From Anaerolineae bacterium (GTDB taxonomy: Bacteria > Chloroflexota > Anaerolineae > B4-G1 > DUEL01), in NCBI GenBank assembly GCA_016931695.1, contig JAFGEI010000217.1:30248-94247 (forward strand): a stretch of DNA of 64,000 nucleotides, given 5' to 3'. Made by a program: the position numbers and the translations under genes. Shown piece after piece: positions 30,520 to 44,873 of the stretch. Each line of letters starts with the position of its first letter. Within the stretch, counting starts at the first letter, position 1. The notes under the pieces are model-generated. The model did not search any database. It saw only the letters and a program-made list of their open reading frames with translations, and had not been told where the DNA came from.

Positions 30520-32058
30520 ATGGCACGACTGCACGAATTTCAGGGAAAAGCGCTTTTGCGGCAGTTCAAGATCGCCGTGCCCCAGGGGGGCGTGGCGGCG
30601 ACGCCGGACGAAGCGCGCACGATTGCCGCAGAGATCGGCAAGCCAGTCATGGTCAAGGCCCAGGCCTGGGTGACAGGGCGGGCGAGCATGGGCGGCATCA
30701 AAAAGGCCGCCACGCCCAACGAGGCTGCCGCGGCGGCCGAGGCAATGCTCGGGATGAAGGTCAAGGGCTTTGTCGTCGAACAGGTGCTGATCGAGGAACA
30801 GCTGGACATCACCCGCGAGTTCTACGCCGGGGTCATTGTCGATGACCGGGCGCAGGCGCCGCTGGTCATGTTCTCCAGCGTGGGCGGAACGGGCATCGAA
30901 GAGATCGCCGCGGCCCACCCGGACCAGGTCGCCAGCACCCACGTCGACATCATCGCCGGCCTGCAGGATTACAAGGCCCGCAACCTGGTGCGCAAGACCG
31001 GCATAGGCGGGCGGCTGCAGCGGGACCTGGGCGGTCTGTTGGTACAGCTGTACGATGTGGCGCGCACCTACGAGGCCCGTGCAGCCGAGATCAACCCGCT
31101 GGTTGAAACTGCCGACGGCAAGCTCTACGCCGCCGACTGCCGCCTCACCGTAGACGATTACGCCGTCTTTCGGCACAAGGACCTGGGCATCGAGATCGCG
31201 CGCGAGTACGACCGGCCGCCCACGGCGCTGGAAAAGATCGCCTACGCGGTGGAAGCAAAGGACTATCGCGGCACCTTTTATTTTATCCAGATGGCCGAGG
31301 ATTTTGAGCAGGGGGATGGCTACGTCGGCTTCCACGGCGCCGGCGGCGGCGGCTCGATGATGAGCATGGACGCCGTGCTGCGCCAGGGCTACAAGCTGGC
31401 GACCTTTGTCGACACCAGCGGCAACCCGCCCGCCAGCAAGGTCTACCGCGCGGCCCGCATCGTCCTGGCGACCGGCCCCATCGACGGCTACTTTGGCTCC
31501 GGCTCCGGCGTCGCCAGCCAGGAACAGTTCCACTCGGCGCGGGGGCTGGTCAAGGCCTTTTTGGAGGCCCACCTCGACATCCCCGTCGTCGTCCGCCTGG
31601 GCGGCAACGCCGAGGACAAGGCGGTCGAGATCCTGGAACGGCTCAACGAGCACATCCCGGCCCCCGTGGAGGGATACAGGAAAGACGACTCGCCCGACTT
31701 TTGCGCCCAGCGGCTCGCTGCCCTGATCGAGGCGGGGGAGCTGCGGGACGTCGCCCCGCCGGCACCACGCCCCGCGCCCCAGCAGCCCTACAGCTTTACC
31801 ACCGTCACCGGCGGCACGGTCACTTTCGACCACGCCCTCTGTGCCACCTGCGAGAGCAAAATCTGCGTGCAGGAATGCGTCGCCCAGATCCTCTCCCTAA
31901 ACGACGACGGCTGCCCAGAGCTCAACATTACGCTCGCAGAGGCCCAAAAAGGCCGCTGCATCGAGTGCCTGGCCTGCGAGGTCGAGTGCATGTTCCAGGG
32001 AGCGGGCGGCGGGCACATCGATCTGCCCATCCCCGGGCTGGACGAGGAGGTCATCTAA
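30520..32058 (+). CDS. succinyl/citryl-CoA synthetase beta (ATP-grasp) subunit fused to a C-terminal 2[4Fe-4S] ferredoxin-like domain
   Basis: MARLHEFQGKALLRQFKIAVPQGGVA...KPVMVKAQAWVTGRASMGGIKKAATPNEA...EINPLVE...DTSGNPPASKVYRAARIVLATGPIDGYFGSGSG...VPVVVRLGGNAED; then a Pro-rich linker and CATCESKICVQEC...CIECLACEVEC. Confidence 0.9.
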   Translation: MARLHEFQGKALLRQFKIAVPQGGVAATPDEARTIAAEIGKPVMVKAQAWVTGRASMGGIKKAATPNEAAAAAEAMLGMKVKGFVVEQVLIEEQLDITREFYAGVIVDDRAQAPLVMFSSVGGTGIEEIAAAHPDQVASTHVDIIAGLQDYKARNLVRKTGIGGRLQRDLGGLLVQLYDVARTYEARAAEINPLVETADGKLYAADCRLTVDDYAVFRHKDLGIEIAREYDRPPTALEKIAYAVEAKDYRGTFYFIQMAEDFEQGDGYVGFHGAGGGGSMMSMDAVLRQGYKLATFVDTSGNPPASKVYRAARIVLATGPIDGYFGSGSGVASQEQFHSARGLVKAFLEAHLDIPVVVRLGGNAEDKAVEILERLNEHIPAPVEGYRKDDSPDFCAQRLAALIEAGELRDVAPPAPRPAPQQPYSFTTVTGGTVTFDHALCATCESKICVQECVAQILSLNDDGCPELNITLAEAQKGRCIECLACEVECMFQGAGGGHIDLPIPGLDEEVI

Positions 32059-32963
32059 TGTCTATTCTCATCGATCAAACCAAGCGCGTCCTGGTACAGG
32101 GCATCACCGGGCGCGAGGGAATTGCACGCACGCAGTTGATGGTTGGCTACGGCACCCACGTCGTCGCCGGAGTGACGCCCGGCAAGGGCGGGCAGGCAGT
32201 CGAGGGCATCCCGGTCTTTGATACCGTCGAGGAAGCGTGGGAGCAGGCTGGCCCGATCGACATCAGCGTCCTCTTTATCCCCGCGCCACTGGTGCGGAGC
32301 GCGGCGTTGGAGGCGATCGACGCCGGGGTCAAGCTGCTGGTCATCGTGCCCGACCGGGTGCCCATCTATGACGTGCTCGTCATCGCCAAGCGGGCCAAAG
32401 AAACCGGGGCCCGCTTCGTCGGGCCGAACACGCTGGGAGTGCTCAGCCCCGACAAGGCAGTGCTGGGCATGATCGGCGGCCGCGCCGCCTCGGCCCGCTC
32501 CTGGTTCTTCCCGGGGCCGGTCGGCATCTCCTCTCGCAGCGGCGGCATCACTTCCTCAATGGCCTACTACCTGGCCCAGGAGGGCATCGGCGCCACCACC
32601 CTGGTCCACGTCGGCGGCGACGCGGTGGTCGGATTGCCCCACCCCGAGGTGGTCAAGCTCTTTGAGCATGACCCCGAGACCAAGGCGGTGGTCATGTTCG
32701 GCGAGATCGGCACCAGCCAGGAAGAGATGGTGGCGGATTTGATCGAAGAGGGCGCGTTCACCAAACCGCTGGTCGCCTACATCGGCGGCAAGGCGGCCAA
32801 GAGCGGCACCCGCTTCTCGCACGCCGGCGCCATCGTCGAAGGAGGCCGCGGCACCTACGAGGGCAAGGTCGAGCGGCTGCGCGAGGTCGGCGCGACGGTG
32901 GTGGAACAGTTTATGGATCTGCCGGCGGCAACCAAGGAGGTGTTGGCACGGATTGGCGCATGA
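32058..32963 (+). CDS. succinyl/citryl-CoA synthetase alpha subunit
   Basis: MSILIDQTKRVLVQGITGREGIARTQLMVGYGTHVVAGVTPGKGGQAVEGIPVFDTVEEA; catalytic His motif RFSHAGAIVEGGRGTYEGK. Confidence 0.93.
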   Translation: MSILIDQTKRVLVQGITGREGIARTQLMVGYGTHVVAGVTPGKGGQAVEGIPVFDTVEEAWEQAGPIDISVLFIPAPLVRSAALEAIDAGVKLLVIVPDRVPIYDVLVIAKRAKETGARFVGPNTLGVLSPDKAVLGMIGGRAASARSWFFPGPVGISSRSGGITSSMAYYLAQEGIGATTLVHVGGDAVVGLPHPEVVKLFEHDPETKAVVMFGEIGTSQEEMVADLIEEGAFTKPLVAYIGGKAAKSGTRFSHAGAIVEGGRGTYEGKVERLREVGATVVEQFMDLPAATKEVLARIGA

Positions 32964-33053: not shown

Positions 33054-33830
33054 ATGACCGAAGAAATCTGGTCTCAACCAATCACAAAAATCGAGCCCAA
33101 CAAGGTGGCTGTGCGCGGTTATCGCATCGACGAGTTGATGGGCCGCGTACCCTTTGCCCACGTCGTCTACCTGGTACTCAAGGGCGAGCTGCCCACTGCA
33201 GCCCAGGGGCAGGTAATGGACGCCATCCTCGTCTCCAGCGTCGACCACGGCGCGACGCCGCCCTCGGTGCTGGCGGCGCGGACGGTCGCCTCGGGCGGCG
33301 CCCCACTGACCACCGGCATCGCCGCCGGCATCATGACCATCAACCGCCACCACGGGGGAGCCATCGAGGGCTGCATGCGCGTGCTGCTGGAGGCAGTGGC
33401 CTCCAAGCGGGCGAAAGGGCAGGATACCCTCACCGCCGCTCGCGAGCTGGTGACCGACTACCGGGAGCAGAAAAAGCGCATCCCCGGCTACGGCCACCGC
33501 ATCCACACCGAGGACCCGCGCACGATCAAGCTCTTTGCCATCTGCGAAGAGGTGGGGGTGGCGGGCGAATACGTCGCGATGGGACACGCCCTGCGCCAGG
33601 CAATGAACGAGATCATTGGCAAGGACCTGCCGCTGAACGTCGACGGGGCCATCGCCGCCGTGCTGTGCGAGCTGGACATCCCACCCGAAATGGGCAACGG
33701 CCTCTTTGCCATCGCCCGCACCGTCGGCCTGACCGCCCACGTATTCGACGAAATCACCGCCCAGCGGCCGATGCGGCGCATCTCGCCTACAGCGCAGGAG
33801 TATAACGGACCGGAGGAACGGTCTCTGTAG
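33054..33830 (+). CDS. citryl-CoA lyase-like protein (citrate synthase C-terminal fold, stand-alone)
   Basis: 258 aa; NRHHGGAIEGCMRVL, IPGYGHRIHTEDPRTIKLF, LPLNVDGAIAAVLCELDIPPEMGNGLFAIARTVGLTAHVFDE: the three catalytic motifs (His, His, Asp) of citrate synthase/CCL. Confidence 0.82.
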   Translation: MTEEIWSQPITKIEPNKVAVRGYRIDELMGRVPFAHVVYLVLKGELPTAAQGQVMDAILVSSVDHGATPPSVLAARTVASGGAPLTTGIAAGIMTINRHHGGAIEGCMRVLLEAVASKRAKGQDTLTAARELVTDYREQKKRIPGYGHRIHTEDPRTIKLFAICEEVGVAGEYVAMGHALRQAMNEIIGKDLPLNVDGAIAAVLCELDIPPEMGNGLFAIARTVGLTAHVFDEITAQRPMRRISPTAQEYNGPEERSL

Positions 33831-33914: not shown

Positions 33915-33929
33915 TGAGGAGAAAAAGTG

Positions 33930-34502
33930 ATGAGAGAACGACTGCTTGAACTGATGCCCGAGTTCGATCTGATCCAGGATGACGAACTGCGGGAAAAGTC
34001 AATCCACACCTGGGAGGTGGCGATGGAGCAGGGGGGCTGGACGCCGGATGAACTGGCCGAGATGCCCTTTACCCTGCTGCTCAACCCCTGCCCGGCCTCT
34101 TACATCGACCACGTCCGCGCGGTGACCCTGACCGCCGTCCGCACCGCCGAGGTCTTTGGCGAGATCTATGGCGACCGCGTGCCGGTCGACATGGACCTGC
34201 TCGTTGCCGGCGCGCTGCTGCACGACGTCGGCAAGATCCTCGAGTACGAGCCGTGCGAGGACGGCACGACGGTGCAGTCCTACAACGGCAAGCTGATGCG
34301 CCACCCCTTCAGTGGCATGGAGCTGGCGGCCCGCTGCGGCCTGCCGCTGGAGGTCCAACACATCATCGCCGCCCACGCCGGGGAGGGGGACAAGATGGAC
34401 CGCACCACCGAAGCGACGCTGGTCAACCACGCCGATTTCATGTCCTTCCACAGCTTTCAGCGCATGCTGACCAAGAAGCAACTTGCGGCGAGGATGGGGT
34501 AA
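33930..34502 (+). CDS. HD-domain phosphohydrolase-like protein
   Basis: VDMDLLVAGALLHDVGKILEYEP...LMRHPFSGMELAARCGLPLEVQHIIAAHAGEGDKM. Confidence 0.85.
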   Translation: MRERLLELMPEFDLIQDDELREKSIHTWEVAMEQGGWTPDELAEMPFTLLLNPCPASYIDHVRAVTLTAVRTAEVFGEIYGDRVPVDMDLLVAGALLHDVGKILEYEPCEDGTTVQSYNGKLMRHPFSGMELAARCGLPLEVQHIIAAHAGEGDKMDRTTEATLVNHADFMSFHSFQRMLTKKQLAARMG

Positions 34503-34571: not shown

Positions 34572-35831
34572 ATGGCTGGACAAACGATCATCGAAAAGAT
34601 ATTTGCCGCCCACACCGCCGCTGACGCCTCCGTCGAGCCGGGCAGCATCATCTGGCTCGACCTCGACGTGCGCACGGCGCGCGATTTTGCCGGGGCGAAC
34701 GTGGTCAAGAACTATCAAACCCACTATGGCGAAACGCCCGTCGCCGACAAAACCAAGACCTTTTTCACCTTCGACCTGGTCGTGCCGCCCAGCAACATCC
34801 CCTACGCCAACAACCAACAGGTCTGCCGCACCTGGGCGCGGGAGCAGGGGGTCGGGGTCTATGACGTCAACGCCGGCATCGGCTCCCACGTGGTGGTGGA
34901 GGAGGGGCTGGCCTACCCCGGCGTGACGCTGGTCGGCACCGACAGCCACCTCAACATCCTGGGAGCAATCGGCGCCTTCGGCCAGGGCATGGGCGATCAG
35001 GACATTGCCTTTGCCTTCAAAACCGGCCGCACCTGGTTCGAGGTGCCGCCGACGATGAAGGTGGTGGTCAAGGGAGAGTACCAGTACCCCTGCACCGCTC
35101 GCGACCTGACGCTGGCGATCCTGGACAAGCTGGGCTCCAAGGGCGCGCTGGGCCGGGCGATCGAGTTCTACGGCCCGGCAATCGAGGCCCTCGACCTGCC
35201 CGGGCGCATCACCCTCGCCAGCCAGGTGACCGAAATGGGCGGCATCGTCGGCTTTATCCCCCCTTCGGAGGAGGTGCTGGCCTACGCCCGCCAGCAAAGC
35301 GGACGGGCCGACATCCCGTCGTTCGCCGCCGATCCCGACGCCGAGTACGTAGAGACGGTCGTGGTCGACGTCAGCGGGCTGGAACCGCTCATCGCCTGCC
35401 CGCCCAACCCGGCCAACGTGGTGCCGGTGCGCGAGGTGGCGGGCCGGCGCATCGATTCGGTCTTTTTCGGCTCCTGCACCAACGGCCGGTTCGAGGATTT
35501 CGCGGCGGTGGCCGAGATCGTGCAGGGAAAGCGGGTCGCGCCGTGGGTCATGGCGACGGTGGTACCGGCGACGCGGGAGGTCTACCAGCAGATGCTTCGC
35601 TCCGGCGTGCTGCAGACCCTCTTTGATGCCGGGTTCATCATCAGCAACCCCGGCTGCGGCGGCTGCGCTTCGGGACATCTCGGCATGACCGGCGTGGGAC
35701 AGGTCAACATCAGCACCAGCAATCGCAATTTTCCCGGCAAGCAAGGCGCCGGCGACACCTACCTGGCCAGCCCGGTCACGGCCGCCTGGTGCGCCCTCAA
35801 AGGCGAGATCACGGTGCCGGAGGCCAGTTAA
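34572..35831 (+). CDS. aconitase superfamily (LeuC/HacA-like) dehydratase large subunit 1
   Basis: LVGTDSHLNILGAIGAFGQGMGDQDIAFAF; GSCTNGRFEDF; NPGCGGCASGH Fe-S ligands; STSNRNFPGKQG. Confidence 0.9.
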   Translation: MAGQTIIEKIFAAHTAADASVEPGSIIWLDLDVRTARDFAGANVVKNYQTHYGETPVADKTKTFFTFDLVVPPSNIPYANNQQVCRTWAREQGVGVYDVNAGIGSHVVVEEGLAYPGVTLVGTDSHLNILGAIGAFGQGMGDQDIAFAFKTGRTWFEVPPTMKVVVKGEYQYPCTARDLTLAILDKLGSKGALGRAIEFYGPAIEALDLPGRITLASQVTEMGGIVGFIPPSEEVLAYARQQSGRADIPSFAADPDAEYVETVVVDVSGLEPLIACPPNPANVVPVREVAGRRIDSVFFGSCTNGRFEDFAAVAEIVQGKRVAPWVMATVVPATREVYQQMLRSGVLQTLFDAGFIISNPGCGGCASGHLGMTGVGQVNISTSNRNFPGKQGAGDTYLASPVTAAWCALKGEITVPEAS

Positions 35832-35888
35832 CCGACAAATCAGCCACGAATTACACGAATTCTCACGAGTAAAACAGGAGAATGATGT

Positions 35889-36422
35889 ATGAAGGAAACA
35901 ACAGTTAAAGGCCGCCTCTGGATCCTCACCAACCCGGCGGGCAAGCTGTACGACGACATCGACACCGACATGATCTTTCACAACCGCTACCTGCACATCA
36001 CCGACGTGGCCGAGATGGGGCAGTATGCGTTGGACAACCTGGTCGGTTGGAAGAATTTTGCGCGCAAGGCCCAGGCGGGGGACGTGATCATGGCCGGGCC
36101 GAACTTTGGCTCCGGCTCCTCCCGCCAGCAGGCAGTCGACTGCTTTCGCGCCCTGGGCATCAACGCGGTCATCGCCGAGAGCTTTGGCGCCATCTACAAG
36201 CGCAACGCCATCAACAGCGGGCTGCCCATCGTCACCATGCCTGGCCTCAGCAAGATCGCCGGCGAGTTTGCCACCGGCGACGAGCTGGCGGTCGATTTCG
36301 CCACCGGCGAGGTGGTGCTCAACGGCGAGAAGCGCTTCCAGGCCGAGCCCTTCTCCGGCGTGCAGATGGACATCTACCAGGCAGGGGACCTGTTCGCGTA
36401 CGGGGAGTCGTTGGGAGCGTGA
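35889..36422 (+). CDS. aconitase superfamily (LeuD-like) dehydratase small subunit 1
   Basis: DDIDTDMIFHNRYLHITDVAEMG; GDVIMAGPNFGSGSSRQQAVDCFRALGINAVIAESFGAIYKRNAINSGLP. Confidence 0.9.
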   Translation: MKETTVKGRLWILTNPAGKLYDDIDTDMIFHNRYLHITDVAEMGQYALDNLVGWKNFARKAQAGDVIMAGPNFGSGSSRQQAVDCFRALGINAVIAESFGAIYKRNAINSGLPIVTMPGLSKIAGEFATGDELAVDFATGEVVLNGEKRFQAEPFSGVQMDIYQAGDLFAYGESLGA

Positions 36423-36430
36423 ACATACAA

Positions 36431-36480
36431 TTACGTTTCACGTTTTACGCTTTACGTATTGCGTAAAACGTGAAATGTAA
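36431..36480 (+). repeat. 20-bp intergenic hairpin between dehydratase pairs 1 and 2
   Basis: TTACGTTTCACGTTTTACGC-tttacgtatt-GCGTAAAACGTGAAATGTAA; 20-bp stem with a single G-U. Confidence 0.85.
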
Positions 36481-36498
36481 TGCAAGGAGAAATTGCAC

Positions 36499-37752
36499 AT
36501 GGGAGAAACGTTTGCTGAGAAACTCCTGGCCCGCAAAGCCGGGCTGGCCGGCGTGGTTCCGGGACAGATCGTCGTCGTACAGCCCGACAAGCTGCTGACC
36601 CACGACAACACGGCGGCGATCTCGAAAAAGTTTTACCAGATCGGGGTCGAGCGAGTTGCCAACCCGCGCATCAACGTCATCGTGCTCGACCACGTCACGC
36701 CGGCAGCGGACGAAAAGTATGCCACCAACCACCAGGTCATCCGTCAGTTCGCCGCCGAGCAGGGCATCGAGGCCTTTTACGACGTGGGGGAGGGCATCTG
36801 CCACCAGGTGCTGCCCGAGAAGGGGCACGCCTGGCCTGGCGCGCTGATTGTCGGTTCCGACTCCCACACGCCGACCCACGGCGCCTTTGGCGCCTTTGCC
36901 GCCGGCATCGGCCGCACCGAGGCGGCGGCAGTGATGGCGACGGGTAACATCTGGCTGCGGGTGCCGCACAGCTTTCGCATCGTCATTCGCGGCGCCATGC
37001 CGCCGCGGGTGACGCCCAAGGACCTGGCTCTCCACATCATCGGCGACCTGCGCGCCGACGGGGCCGACTACCGCTCGGTCGAGTTCGCCGGCGAGACGGT
37101 CCGCGACATGAGCGTCGCCGGACGCATGGTGCTGACCAACATGGTCGCCGAGATGGGCGGCAAGAACGGCGTGATCGAGCCGGACGACAAAACCCGCGCC
37201 TGGCTGCAGGGCCGCGTGACCCACGAGTACGAGGAGATCCACGCCGACCCCGACGCCAGCTACGAGCGGGTGATCGAGTACAACGTGAGCGGCCTGGCGC
37301 CCCAGGTGGCCAAGCCCCATACCGTCGACAACGTGGTGCCGGTGACCGAGACGGCTGGCATCCCCATCGACCAGGCCCTGATCGGTACCTGCACCAACGG
37401 GCGGGTGGAGGACCTGGCAGCAGCGGCCGAGATCCTGCGCGGGCGGCACATCGCCCCTGGCGTGCGGCTGCTGGTGCTGCCCGCCTCGCGCGAGGTGTTG
37501 CTGCAGGCAGTAGAACAGGGCCTGGTCAGCGACCTGGTCGCCGCCGGCGCGACGCTGCTCAATCCCGGCTGCGGCCCCTGCCTGGGCGCCCACCAGGGCT
37601 GTATGGCCCCCGGCGAGACGACCATCTCGACCGCCAACCGCAATTTCAAGGGCCGCATGGGCGCCAAGGAAGCCTTTATCTACCTCGCCAGCCCGGCCAC
37701 GGTAGCCGCCTCGGCCCTGACCGGCGCCATCACCGATCCGAGGGAGGTGTAA
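36499..37752 (+). CDS. aconitase superfamily dehydratase large subunit 2
   Basis: LIVGSDSHTPTHGAFGAFAAGIGRTEAAAVMATG; GTCTNGRVEDL; NPGCGPCLGAHQG; STANRNFKGRMG. Confidence 0.92.
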   Translation: MGETFAEKLLARKAGLAGVVPGQIVVVQPDKLLTHDNTAAISKKFYQIGVERVANPRINVIVLDHVTPAADEKYATNHQVIRQFAAEQGIEAFYDVGEGICHQVLPEKGHAWPGALIVGSDSHTPTHGAFGAFAAGIGRTEAAAVMATGNIWLRVPHSFRIVIRGAMPPRVTPKDLALHIIGDLRADGADYRSVEFAGETVRDMSVAGRMVLTNMVAEMGGKNGVIEPDDKTRAWLQGRVTHEYEEIHADPDASYERVIEYNVSGLAPQVAKPHTVDNVVPVTETAGIPIDQALIGTCTNGRVEDLAAAAEILRGRHIAPGVRLLVLPASREVLLQAVEQGLVSDLVAAGATLLNPGCGPCLGAHQGCMAPGETTISTANRNFKGRMGAKEAFIYLASPATVAASALTGAITDPREV

Positions 37753-37753
37753 C

Positions 37754-38251
37754 ATGCAGAGCAAGATCACGGGCCGCGTCTGGAAGTATGGCGATGACGT
37801 CAACACCGACGTCATCTTTCCCGGCAAGTATACCTACTCTGTCTCTGACCCACAAGAGATGGCCCGGCACGCCCTGGAGGACCTGGACCCGACCTTTGTC
37901 GCTAACGTGCAGCCGGGCGACGTCATCGTGGCTGGCAAGAACTGGGGCTGCGGCTCCTCCCGCGAGCAAGCAGTGACCTGCCTCAAGGAAATTGGGGTCG
38001 GCGCCATCGTCGCCCGCAGCTTTGCCCGCATCTATTTCCGCAACTGCATCAACCAAGCCCTGCCCATCGCCGCCTGCGACGCGGTGGACGGGGTCGAAAC
38101 GGGCGAAGAGGTCACCATCGACTTTGCCGCGGGCACGGTGACGACGCCGCGCGGCACCTACACCTTCCCGCCCCTGGCGCCCGAGGTGATGGAGATTTTG
38201 GAGACGGGGGGATTGATCCCCTACGTGCAAAAGCAGTTGGGGGTGAAATAG
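37754..38251 (+). CDS. aconitase superfamily dehydratase small subunit 2
   Basis: DDVNTDVIFPGKYTYSVSDPQEMARHAL; GDVIVAGKNWGCGSSREQAVTCLKEIGVGAIVARSFARIYFRNCINQALP. Confidence 0.92.
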   Translation: MQSKITGRVWKYGDDVNTDVIFPGKYTYSVSDPQEMARHALEDLDPTFVANVQPGDVIVAGKNWGCGSSREQAVTCLKEIGVGAIVARSFARIYFRNCINQALPIAACDAVDGVETGEEVTIDFAAGTVTTPRGTYTFPPLAPEVMEILETGGLIPYVQKQLGVK

Positions 38252-38481: not shown

Positions 38482-39891
38482 ATGAAAACCGTACTTTGGT
38501 GGATCCGCCGCGACCTGCGGCTGGCCGATAACCAGGCCCTCGCCGCCGCGCTGAACGCGGCCGAGCGGGTGGTCCCGGTCTTTGTCCTCGACCCGGCCCT
38601 CCTCGCATCGGAGCGGGTTGGGCCGCTGCGCGTCGCCTTCCTGCTGGAGGGGCTGCGCCGCCTGGACAGCGACCTGCGCCAGCGGGGCAGCCGCCTCGTC
38701 CTGCGGCGGGGCGACCCGGCGGCGGAGTTGTCTGCTGTGGCGGCCGAGACCGGCGCCGGGGCGATCTTGGCCGAGGAGGATTTCACCCCCTACGCCCGGC
38801 AGCGGGACAGTCGCGTCCCGTCGCTGCAGTTGGTCGGCGGACGGCTGGTCCACCCCCCGGGCAGCGTGCGCAAGGCGGACGGCACTCCCTACGTCGTCTA
38901 TACCCCTTTCAGCCGCACGTGGAAGGGACTGCCTCAACCGGGGGCGGCAATGCCCGCCCCTGCCCACGTCCCCACAGCGCCACAGGTAGCATCCCTGCCG
39001 GTTCCCGACCAACCGGAACGGCCTCCCGCTATACCGTTCCCCTCAGGTGAGACAGAGGCTCAGCGCCGCCTGGCGGCCTTTGTCACCGGCGACGATGCCC
39101 CCGTCTACCGCTACGCCCAAACGCGCGACCGCGTCGACCTGGACGGCACTTCGCAGCTCTCCCCTTACCTGCACCTGGGGATGATCTCTTCTCGCCAGGC
39201 CGTCGCCGCGGCGTTGGACGCCATTGCCGCCGCCCCCAACGCCGCCGCCCGCGAGGGAGCCGAGACCTGGCTGAACGAGTTGATCTGGCGCGAGTTCTAT
39301 GTCCACATCCTCTACCACTTTCCCCACGTGCTGGAGCAGAGCTTTCGTGCCAACCTGCAAGAGATTCGCTGGCAGGACGATGCGTCATCCTTTGCCGCCT
39401 GGCGCGACGGTTGCACCGGTTATCCCATCGTCGACGCGGCAATGCGCCAGTTGGCCCAGACCGGCTGGATGCACAACCGGGCGCGCATGGTCGCCGCCTC
39501 CTTCCTGATCAAGGACCTGCTGATCGACTGGCGGTGGGGCGAGCGGTATTTCATGCAGACGCTGATCGACGGCGACAGCGCCGCCAACAACGGCGGCTGG
39601 CAGTGGACCGCTGGCACCGGCACCGACGCCGCACCCTACTTTCGCGTCTTTCACCCCGTCGCCCAGGGCAGGAAACACGACCCCCAGGGAACCTACGTCC
39701 GCCGCTGGCTGCCGGAACTGGGCCGCGTGCCGGAGCGCTTTGTCCACCAGCCGTGGAAGATGCCCGACGATGTGCAGCAAGCTGCCGGATGCGTGATCGG
39801 ACGGGATTACCCTGCGCCGATCGTCGATCACGCCTGGGCCCGAGAGCGGGCCCTGGACGCCTACCGGCACGCCCGGAGGAACCTGGCATGA
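38482..39891 (+). CDS. phrB: deoxyribodipyrimidine photolyase / cryptochrome family
   Basis: [114 protein letters not shown]. Confidence 0.95.
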
Positions 39892-42800
39892 CGTCCCTCC
39901 CGCTCCTCGCCGCCTACCTGCCCATCGACCGGCGTTTTTCGCTGCTCAGCGGGGAACCGATCCCGCAGCAGGACGAGGGAGCGGTGCTGGTCGCCGACGT
40001 GCGCGGTTTCACCGCCCTGGGCGAGAGCCTGGCCCAGCACCTGGGTCCCTGGGAGGGGGCGGAGGAGCTAAACCGGCGGGTCAGTGACTGTTTCGCCGAC
40101 CTGATCACTGCCGTCCACACCTTCCACGGCTCGGTCATCCGTTTCTCCGGCGACGCCCTGCTGGCTTTCTTCTCCGGCGGGAAAGCGGCGCGTCGGCGCG
40201 CCACCGCAGCAGCGCAGGCCGTTCAATCCGCCGCGCGCCACAACCACCCCGCCATCAGCCTGCGGGTGGGCGTGGGCGCCGGTGCCGTCCACCGCCGCCT
40301 GGTGGGCGATCCGGCCTACGGCCTGTACGACCTGGTCAGCGGCCCGGCCCTGAACGCGGCCCTGGTGGCGATGAAGCAGGCGCTGCCGGGCGGCATCAGC
40401 GGCGACCTGGCCGCCCAGCCGGCAGAGCCCTGGCCCTGGCCCGCCCAGGCGTGGGATGACCTGCCAGAGGCCAGCCTGCTGCCGTGGATTCCCCCCGCCA
40501 TCTATGCCCGGCTGGTGGAAGGAACAGCAGCCTTTGTGGCCGAGCTGCGCCAGGTCGTACCCATCTTTGTCCAGGCCGGGTGCTCGGAGGCGGATTTGGC
40601 CGATTACGTGCCGCGGGTCCAGGCGGTGCTCGCGCCCTACGAAGTCAGCCTCAACGGGGTGGACATCCTGGACAAGGGGCCGGTGCTGGTCGCATGTCTC
40701 GGCGCGCCGCTGGCGCGGGGCGACGATCCACTGCGCGCGGTCGGTGCGGCCCTCTCCCTCGCCGACGCCGGGCAGGCATGGGAGCGCCCCATCCCACAGC
40801 GAATCGGCATCAGCATGGGACCGATGTACGCGGGAATGGTCGGCAGCCCAGCCCGCCTCGCCTACACCCTCTACGGCGACGAGATGAACGTAGCGGCGCG
40901 GCTGATGGAGTCGGCCGCGCCGGGAGAGGTGCGGGTGCACGCCGGCCTGCGCCGCCTGACAGAGCGCTGGTACGATTACACCCCGCTGGGCGCAGTGACG
41001 GTCAAGGGACGGCGGGAACCGGTCCCCGTCGCCCGGCTGGAAGGGCAGCGGCAGTCGCCCGGCGGGCTGTCCAAGGGGCCGCTGGTCGGCCGGCAGCGGG
41101 AGTTGGCCCGCCTCGAGACGGCGATAGACGCCGCCTGGTCGGGCCGGAACCGCGTCGTCGTGCTGAGCGGCGAAGCCGGCATCGGCAAGAGCCGGCTGGC
41201 GGAATTCCTCGTGCAGCGGTGGCGCGAGCGCGGCGGAAGCGCCGCGGCCGGACAGGCGCAGGCTGCCGCCCAGCAGCAAGCCTATGCGGCCTGGACGGAG
41301 CTGCTGGGGCGGTTCTTCCACCTGCAAGGCGACGATCAGGACCGGCAGCGCCTGGCAGAGCACGTTGCAGCCGCAGAACCGGCGCTGCTGCCCCGCCTGC
41401 CGCTCTTGGGCGACGTGCTGGGCCTGTCCATCCCTGACAACGACCTCACCCGCGACATCGACGCCCGGCTGCGCCAGGCCAGCACCCAGGCGCTCGTCGT
41501 CGACCTGCTGCGTGCCCGCGGCGAGCCGACCCTGCTGCTGATCGAAGACGCGCAGTGGCTGGACGGGCCGTCCTGGGAGCTCATCCTCGCCGCCGCCCGC
41601 GGCCTTGCCGACAGGCCAGCCCTGCTCTGCCTGACCAGCCGCCCCATCGAACCGCCGCCCATGGCCCTGAACCAACTGCTGGCGCTGCCGCACAGCGAGC
41701 GGATCGCCCTGGGCGAGTTCTCCCCTGCAGAGGCGGTCGACCTGGCCCGCGCCCGCCTGGGAGTTTCATCCCTGCCGCCGGAACTGGCCGAGTTCCTCCA
41801 ATCCCGCGGACAGGGGAACCCCTTTTTCATCGAAGAACTGTTGCACGATCTGCAGGAGGAGGGATTTATCGCCCACGAGGACGGGCAGGTCAGCATGGCC
41901 CGCTCCCTGGACCAGGCCGATCCGCCCGACAACGTCCACGCCGTCATCCTGGCCCGCGTCGACCGGCTGGACGAGCCCGCCCGCTTGACACTCAAGGTGG
42001 CATCGGTCATCGGGCGCAGTTTTGCCTATTCAATCCTGCGCCAGGTCCACCCCGTCCAGGCCCGGCAGGATGCCGACTTGCTGGCGCAACTCGACCACCT
42101 CCAGATCGTCGACATCGTCCTCACCGAGACGCCGACCCCCGAACCGACCTATATCTTTAAGCACGCCATCACCCACGACGTCACTTACGGCACGCTTCTT
42201 TTTTCCCAGCGGCGGGAATTGCACGAGCAGATCGCCCGTTTCTACGAGGAACGTTACCGCGGCCGCCTGGAACCCTACTTTGCCCTGCTGGCCTACCATT
42301 ACAGCCGCAGCGGCAACGAGGAACGCCAGGTCGATTACTGCCTGCAGGCCGGGCAGGAAGCAGCCCGGCGATTTGCCAACGTGGAAGCGATCGCCTTCTA
42401 CAGCCAGGCCCTGGAGGTGCTGGAACGCCGGGCTGCTGTCCTAGAGGGAGCGCCGCTGCAGGACAACCGCCAGCGTCGTTGGGAGCTGCTGGTACGCCGC
42501 GAGGCACTGCTGAACCGCACCGGGCAGCGGGATGCGCAGCGCAGAGACGTCGACGCACTGGGAATTCTGGCCTGCGAGATGGGACAGCCAACACTCTTGC
42601 TCCAGGCCCTGTACCGCCGGGCCCACTTTTTGTACCTGGTCAACGACTATGAACAGAGCCTGTACGCCCTGGAAGAGTTAATGGACGCCGCCAAAGCGGC
42701 CGGCGACTTGTCGATCGAGGGCAAAGCACTGCATATCATGGGCCAGATTGCCTACTACCGGGGATACTGCCAGGAAGCGCTCGAGTACTACCACCAAGCC

Positions 42801-43658
42801 CTTGATCTGTTCCAGGCCGCCGAAGCCAGGAACGAAATGCCGCCACTGCTGAATTCCCTCGGCCTGGCGCACTACAGCCTGGCCGCGTACGACCAGGCGC
42901 TGCCCTATTACGAGCAGGCGATGGAGGTTTACCGCCAGACCAGGAATTACGACGGCGAGGTCCAGGCGCGGGGCAACATCGGCCTGGTCTATTGGGACTG
43001 CGGCCAGTACGACCTGGCGCTGGAGCAGTTCCGGCACATCCTCTCCCTGGCGCAGCAGATGGGCAACCGCCGCCACGAAGCTTATACGCTGCACAACATC
43101 GGCGACCTCTACCGCTACCTGGGCCAGCACGATCAGGCCATCGACTACCTGCAGCGGGCCCTTCACCTCTGCCAAGAGATCGACTCTTCATCGCTGAGAG
43201 GGGAATGCCTGAACAACCTCGGGCGGGTCTATTTGGAGCAGGGGCAGTTTGCGCAGGCACAATCCCACCTGGAGCAGGCACTGCGAATCCGCCAGCAGTT
43301 GGACGAGACCGGCAGCATGGTCCTCGACCGCTCGTTCCTGGCCCGGGCGGTCCTGGAACAGGGCAACCTGCAGGAGGCGCTGGCCCACTCGCGCCGGGCG
43401 ATGGAACTGCTGCAAGGGGATGACGTGGCGGTGGATTGGGAGCACCAGGTCCACTTTAACCATTACCGGGTCTGCCGCGCCTCCAGCCTGCCAGAAGAAG
43501 CCAGCGCAGCCCTGGAGCGCGCCTATCGAACGATGCAGGCGCTGACGGAAAAGATGAGCGAGGAAGGACGCCGCTCATTCCTGGGGGGAGTATGGATCAA
43601 TCGGGAAATTACAATGGCCTGGAAAGCCAACGCGAATCGCACGAATAAACACGAATGA
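39888..43658 (+). CDS. tandem class III cyclase domains + AAA ATPase + TPR protein (soluble-adenylyl-cyclase-like)
   Basis: CHD1 [12 protein letters not shown]...[14 protein letters not shown]2 [34 protein letters not shown]; Walker [16 protein letters not shown]; multiple C-terminal TPRs. ATGA overlap with phrB. Confidence 0.9.
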
Positions 43659-43754
43659 AAACGAATGGAGTCACGAATGGCATCGATGATACGAACAAGA
43701 TGAACACCGACTTTGGATTCTAGACCTCAGACTATACATCATAAGGAGAAAAAT

Positions 43755-44873
43755 ATGCCCAAGTATCGAATCGCTTGGATGCCCGGAGATGGCATCGGCA
43801 ACGACGTGATGGACGCCGCCAGGATCGTCCTCGACAAGATCGCCATCGACGCCGAGTACGTCCCGGCCGACATCGGCTGGGAGTTTTGGCGTACAGAGGG
43901 GGAACCCTTGCCGCAGCGCACCATCGACATCCTCAACAGCTGCGACTGTGCCCTCTTTGCCGCCATCACCTCCAAGCCGAAGGAAGAAGCCGAGGCCGAC
44001 CTGGTCCCCGAGCTGCAAGGCAAGGGCCTCGTCTACCGCAGCCCCATCGTGCGGCTGCGGCAGATGTTTGACCTGTACATCAACCTGCGCCCCTGCAAGG
44101 CGTTCAAGGGCAATCCGCTCAACCTGCAGGACGGGATCGACATGGTCGTCTTTCGCGAGAATACCCAGGGGCTCTACGCCGGGGTCGAATTTCATCCCCT
44201 GCCGGCCGAGGTGCGGTCGGTGTTGGAAGCCCACAGCCCTCGCATGGCGGCCTTTGAGGGCGTTCCCTCGGAGGACATTGCCCTCTCCACGCGCATCTTT
44301 ACCCGCGCCGGCTGCCAGCGCATCGTGCGCGCCGCCTTTGAGTACGCCGACAAGTTTGGCTACCCCACCGTCACCTTGGTGGAAAAGCCAAACGTCATCC
44401 GCGAGACCTCCGGCCTGATGGTGCGCGAAGCGCGCAAGATCGCCAAAGAGTATCCGCGCATCGAGCTGTGGGAGACCAACGTCGACGCCATGGTGATGTG
44501 GATGGTCAAAAACCCGCAGAATTACGGCGTGATGGTGGCGAGCAACATGTTCGGCGACATTGTCTCCGACCTGGCAGCGCAGCTGGTCGGGGGGCTGGGC
44601 TTTGCCGCCAGCGGCAACATTGGCGACAAGTTTGCCGTCTTTGAACCGACCCACGGCTCGGCGCCCAAGTACGCCGGGCAGTACGTCGCCAACCCCACGG
44701 CAATGTTACTGGCGGTCAAGCTGATGCTCGATTGGCTGGGCGAGACCGAGACCGCGCAGGCGTTGGAGCAAGCTGTCGCCGCCGTGATCGAGGAAGGCCG
44801 GGTCCGCACCTACGACCTGGGCGGCCAAGACGGCACCCTCGACGTCGCGCGGGCGGTGGCGGAGCGTTTGTAA
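43755..44873 (+). CDS. NAD(P)-dependent isocitrate/isopropylmalate-type beta-decarboxylating dehydrogenase
   Basis: [104 protein letters not shown]. Confidence 0.9.

Follow-up and report, generated by a model that had tools for sequence, protein, structure and literature searches.

A ferredoxin-like domain attached to a putative citryl-CoA synthetase in an Anaerolineae bacterium and its relatives

The window analyzed here, a 64,000-nucleotide stretch of a contig from an Anaerolineae bacterium, contains an operon in which genes for a ligase β subunit with a ferredoxin-like domain (β-Fd), a ligase α subunit, a citryl-CoA lyase, an HD-domain protein, LeuC1, LeuD1, LeuC2, and LeuD2 follow one another in this order, much of which recurs in relatives. 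The first gene, at 30520-32058 on the + strand, starts with ATG and is open throughout; its 512-residue product consists of an SCS-β-like ATP-grasp core, a Pro-rich linker (APPAPRPAPQQP), and a tail with eight cysteines. The features of the locus are as follows.

30520..31752, + strand: SCS-β/CCS-large-like ATP-grasp core, residues 1-411 (PF08442, E=5e-54, and PF13549; best PDB match 3ufx_B residues 3-375; CCS-like GGGGS and SGNPPASK loops)
31753..31788, + strand: Pro-rich linker, residues 412-423 (translation and alignment; length and sequence vary among relatives)
31789..32055, + strand: eight-Cys dicluster-ferredoxin-like domain, residues 424-512, about 89 residues (alignments, Fer4 matches in relatives, AlphaFold model)
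32058..32963, + strand: SucD-like CoA-binding α subunit with phosphohistidine loop FSHAGAI (PF02629, PF00549; SHAG loop)
33054..33830, + strand: citryl-CoA lyase, a short citrate-synthase-family protein with HHGGA, GHR, and NVD motifs (NF004869, 265.9 bits; cut-off 212)
33927..34502, + strand: HD-domain protein (PF01966; same place in relatives)
34575..35831, + strand: LeuC1, aconitase-family large subunit (PF00330, NF001614; the start codon is our choice)
35889..36422, + strand: LeuD1, aconitase-family small subunit (PF00694, TIGR02087)
36493..37752, + strand: LeuC2, aconitase-family large subunit (PF00330, TIGR01343/NF001614)
37754..38251, + strand: LeuD2, aconitase-family small subunit (PF00694, TIGR02087)
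43713..44873, + strand: isocitrate/homoisocitrate/isopropylmalate-dehydrogenase (Iso_dh) family protein (same NCBIfam profile matches as the Iso_dh-like protein of relatives)

The start codon of the α gene overlaps the β-Fd stop codon (TAATG), and the citrate context proposed in an earlier note on this DNA is supported. The HD-domain gene is kept between the lyase and aconitase genes in many relatives and follows the lyase in WOR-3. The LeuCD-type genes form two tandem pairs (34575-38251), although a single Iso_dh gene is all that the genome yielded; citrate dehydration and cis-aconitate hydration might be divided between the two pairs, or one of them might act in a different pathway. In several relatives an Iso_dh-like gene lies directly 3' of the operon. 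In the window, the interval between them holds an open reading frame of 1415 codons (39411-43658), whose translation, inspected by eye, resembles a cyclase in its N-terminal region and contains numerous TPR-like repeats. Simple scans of the operon for sigma-70 promoters and terminators returned nothing above shuffled sequences.

The cysteines of the tail are arranged in two motifs, CATCESKICVQEC (Cx2Cx4Cx3C; Cys441, Cys444, Cys449, and Cys453) and CIECLACEVEC (Cx2Cx2Cx3C; Cys480, Cys483, Cys486, and Cys490), with the first and last Cys codons at 31840 and 31989. An eight-Cys dicluster layout in frame after the SCS-β core had been described in the earlier note, and the open frame and both motifs agree with it, but the motifs are separated by 26 residues and not by the approximately 32 given there. 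Motif 1 may resemble that of FixX/ETF-QO. A Pfam Fer4 search, which had been suggested as a check, gave a divided answer. The window tail by itself produced weak matches to Fer4_6 (E=9e-4) and Fer4_9 (E=0.048), both below the curated cut-offs, and a Pfam scan of the full-length window protein contained no Fer4 match, whereas under a permissive threshold (E≤1) Fer4_9 matched the tails of 15 of 18 relatives (best 1.3e-6) and Fer4_7 likewise 15 of 18 (best 3.5e-5, also at a permissive threshold). In the AlphaFold model the tail is a confident, compact domain (pLDDT 92.6; 89.8 for the complete β-Fd protein). Foldseek comparison of this domain with the PDB gave weak matches (best E=0.042), mostly to ferredoxin-fold proteins, and the best 50 matches of the whole protein included the SCS/CCS/ACL core. 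The tail is like 2[4Fe-4S] ferredoxins and the ferredoxin subunits of PFOR/KGOR (8ys5_D, 9bt4) in its two Cys motifs and ferredoxin-like fold model, these matches being weak, but differs from both groups in the Cx2Cx4Cx3C spacing of motif 1, in its attachment to a ligase, and in terminating in a conserved LPIPGL-type segment. Archaeal RNA polymerase subunit D has a ferredoxin-like Fe-S domain within an enzyme that carries out no redox chemistry; this protein (2pa8_D) is a weak Foldseek match to the tail (E=0.13) and, the enzyme being unrelated, offers an analogy for a structural role only.

A scan of GTDB genomes found relatives encoded at 41 loci, and the full-length fusion is recurrent in Chloroflexota, WOR-3/Hydrothermota, and Methylomirabilota. 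The tail was matched at every one of these loci except L028, where the contig ends 28 bases past the core match, and the L023 tail is truncated; it should be noted that one of the six search peptides came from the tail, so that the scan leans somewhat to tailed forms. The eight cysteines are invariant in 18 aligned fusions with identities down to 52% (Chloroflexota, WOR-3, Hydrothermota, and Methylomirabilota), which upholds the assignment of a dicluster ferredoxin-like domain joined to an SCS/CCS-type ATP-grasp subunit. Both canonical motifs are present in 57 of 63 distinct tails, fused and stand-alone; the others are four stand-alone proteins with Asp in place of one motif-2 Cys, the degenerate L084 copy, and one tail ended by its contig. 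Of 148 genomes from the phylum that contains WOR-3, 13 had a match to the tail, those tabulated lying in frames of at least 519 residues, as fusions predict; so did 3 of 96 genomes in the Methylomirabilota set (two in 552-residue frames and one in a 213-residue frame). Among plasmid records, neither the tail nor either of two stand-alone versions found a match. Nei-Gojobori comparisons of the window with six relatives gave dN/dS values of 0.15-0.25 for the tail versus 0.09-0.21 for the core and, as judged from these ratios, the tail is under purifying selection. A frameshift or chance reading frame, the former having been raised in the earlier note as a possible artefact, is rejected on the grounds of this conservation, across at least three phyla, and of the dN/dS values.

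A search of Chloroflexota genomes with a profile of the tail retrieved separate small proteins as well as fusions, so that the term "fusion" used earlier holds for some lineages, the domain apparently being a ligase subunit with a gene of its own in others. At six loci (L079-L084) a SucC-like gene is accompanied by a stand-alone ferredoxin gene, which is directly followed by a SucD-like gene (located by tblastn in L079); at L083 two extra open reading frames separate SucC from the ferredoxin. This arrangement, with the ferredoxin as a separate gene just before SucD, is new here. The neighbours include methylmalonyl-CoA mutase (L079 and L082), aconitase-type genes, PrpF, and an HMGL-like lyase (L080 and L081), an HpcH/HpaI lyase, MmgE/PrpD, and fumarate-reductase-like flavoproteins (L083), and two MmgE/PrpD genes (L084), and the linked lyases are of unrelated folds. 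Because the stand-alone gene precedes SucD and is linked to such different lyases, the ferredoxin appears to belong to the ligase and not to one redox pathway. Motif 2 is altered in five of the six stand-alone copies, with Asp for one Cys in four and several Cys lost in L084. In a tree of β cores, in which SCS, with four sequences, was the only known ligase family represented, a single branch parts the fused and separate-ferredoxin ligases from the SCS sequences (SH-aLRT 100). The paralogous SucC-ferredoxin-SucD clusters at L080:6621-13068 and L081:6977-13466 (− strand), which also contain PrpF, a LeuC of the aconitase type, and an HMG-CoA-lyase-like gene, look as if they encode a so far undescribed pathway that breaks down a tricarboxylic or branched acid. 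A further cluster that may serve acid degradation lies at L083:3118-15623 (+ strand), where SucC, ferredoxin, and SucD share the neighbourhood with MmgE/PrpD, a CitE-like HpcH/HpaI lyase, and two fumarate-reductase-like flavoproteins.

Few ligases have been studied as much as SCS, CCS, and ACL, and to our knowledge none of the three contains an Fe-S module. The earlier remark that no characterized CCS or SCS is known to have this fusion is in keeping with our comparisons, in which no matched PDB chain of SCS, CCS, or ACL covers the tail, and the open-access literature, to which the search extended, yielded no description of a ferredoxin domain in SCS or CCS. The core of the window protein keeps the ATP-grasp fold, and the α subunit the phosphohistidine loop (Pfam and motifs). 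The window ligase shares with SCS (SucCD; 3ufx, 1scu) its fold, overall sequence, and the phosphohistidine loop in α, but its β and α subunits score below the curated cut-offs for SucC (261 bits; cut-off 370) and SucD (290.5 bits; cut-off 336), and it has SGNPPASK where SCS has a GGG loop, plus the ferredoxin tail. A simple SucC annotation is rejected in view of these cut-offs, of the loop motifs, and of a separate SucC/SucD pair on another contig of the same genome. The CCS of Hydrogenobacter thermophilus (6hxq) resembles the window ligase in its SCS-like β and α subunits, its linked citrate-synthase-type lyase, and its acid-binding loops, which are GGGGS and GGNPPAEK in that enzyme and GGGGS and SGNPPASK in the window; GGGGS and GNPPA-K are common to both and absent from SCS, the 6hxq sequence used being partial. 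However, the 429-residue large subunit of that CCS lacks a ferredoxin domain, and its alignment stops ahead of the window tail. Overall sequence and fold scores favor SCS structures over CCS, so that the case for citrate specificity depends on the loops and neighbouring genes. ACL (6hxj, human ACLY) combines citrate activation with a lyase, as is predicted for the window, but the window encodes its lyase in a gene of its own, and the matched ACL chains have no Fe-S domain. Relatives at L085:3377-5071 and L086:7720-9444 (both − strand) have the SucD-like subunit inside a protein of 565-575 residues; at L085, Pfam identifies a fusion of this subunit to a citryl-CoA lyase domain, an ATP-citrate-lyase-like arrangement, beside a ligase β subunit of the ferredoxin type.

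In the genome, which is 93% complete, the lyase at 33054-33830 is the only citrate-synthase-family (PF00285) gene found, LeuC1 and LeuC2 are the only aconitase-family large subunits found, and 43713-44873 is the only Iso_dh gene found. Within the same order, full-length citrate synthase is absent from 21 of 23 genomes with the fusion versus 16 of 26 without it (Fisher p=0.02, a value that ignores relatedness and completeness), two genomes carrying both, and the short citryl-CoA-lyase type accompanies the fusion in 16 of 23 genomes, compared with 3 of 26 that lack it. The module is probably the citrate-making or citrate-cleaving step of the cell. One publication (PMC8129789) reports that in Thermoflexus hugenholtzii glycolysis and the TCA cycle appear to be uncoupled. 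The fusion is present in a Thermoflexus sp. (L007), a possibly unconnected fact.

Most likely, the product of the locus is a citryl-CoA synthetase with three modules, namely an ATP-grasp β subunit, a ferredoxin-like module fused to it, and a CoA-binding α subunit with the catalytic phosphohistidine. Together with citryl-CoA lyase and the aconitase-type hydratases, the ligase would form the only detectable route in this organism between isocitrate and acetyl-CoA plus oxaloacetate; it would stand in for citrate synthase and is probably reversible, yielding ATP when citrate is made and consuming ATP when citrate is cleaved. The best interpretation of the ferredoxin-like domain is that of a third subunit in this subfamily of ligases, joined to β in the window and encoded on its own in relatives. 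Most likely it takes no part in catalysis and is a predicted Fe-S module that stabilizes the ligase or keeps it in an active state, and oxidation or oxygen damage at the module could turn the ligase off. For the combination of citrate as substrate, sole detectable route, and a structural or gating module we judge the balance to be about even. Redox or oxygen gating, which the earlier note had also suggested, is possible. The broader proposal, that in an acid-CoA ligase subfamily an iron-sulfur third subunit acts as a redox/oxygen switch on the activation of citrate or a related acid, cellular redox conditions thereby governing whether citrate is made or cleaved, or how fast, is tentative and less probable.

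The other option suggested in the same note, that electrons are channelled between the ligase and a ferredoxin-dependent partner, is not supported. In a form close to that suggestion, the domain would dock on, or exchange electrons with, 2-oxoacid:ferredoxin oxidoreductases (PFOR/KGOR), tying the ligase to reduced ferredoxin in a TCA metabolon. Such a role would predict the retention of all eight cysteines, which is seen in almost all fused forms, and it draws on six POR_N-family matches in the genome and on the weak sequence and fold similarity of the tail to the KGOR ferredoxin subunit 8ys5_D and to the ferredoxin subunits of PFOR and oxalate oxidoreductase. Acid-CoA ligation, however, requires no electrons; a POR-family gene was identified beside the ligase at none of the loci examined, nor was any common redox partner gene seen. 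The domain stays with the ligase, also as a separate gene, when the lyase family changes, and one of its cluster motifs can be altered, as it is in all but one of the six stand-alone copies; this speaks against a two-cluster electron relay being essential. For these last two reasons a structural or redox/oxygen-gating role is favored over electron channelling, and we consider the oxidoreductase-linked role unlikely.

Were the ligase substrate another acid, such as 2-methylcitrate, homocitrate, or a citramalate-like compound, the operon would belong to a side pathway. Two LeuCD pairs exceed the need for aconitase, methylmalonyl-CoA mutase neighbours the ligase in some relatives, and paralogous ferredoxin-type ligases lie beside PrpF, MmgE/PrpD, and HMGL-like or HpcH/HpaI lyases. 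We nevertheless regard a substrate other than citrate as doubtful, since the lyase exceeds the score cut-off for citryl-CoA lyase, the genome yielded no further citrate-synthase or aconitase gene, and an Iso_dh gene follows in relatives. That the tail is an extension devoid of Fe-S clusters, produced by decay or misreading (a zinc-binding or disulfide domain, say, or the artefact of a frameshift), is very improbable: the weak Pfam scores of the window sequence alone and the L087 locus might be cited for it, but the invariance of the cysteines over at least three phyla, the low dN/dS, the confident fold model, and the independent stand-alone genes weigh against it. At L087:2125-3947 (− strand), the ligase core and ferredoxin tail are in separate, overlapping frames, which may represent a frameshift, either real or due to an assembly error. 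Since relatives encode the domain in a small gene of its own next to the ligase genes, it does not look like a sequencing accident but like an iron-sulfur subunit, not described before, of an enzyme that handles citrate.

A conserved Fe-S subunit in a ligase that apparently replaces citrate synthase would represent an unknown layer of control or assembly in the TCA cycle, and it would open to direct testing whether redox state controls citrate synthesis versus cleavage. Recognition of this ligase would also help in annotating the central metabolism of uncultured Chloroflexota and WOR-3, whose copies of the gene are easily mislabelled as succinate-CoA ligase.
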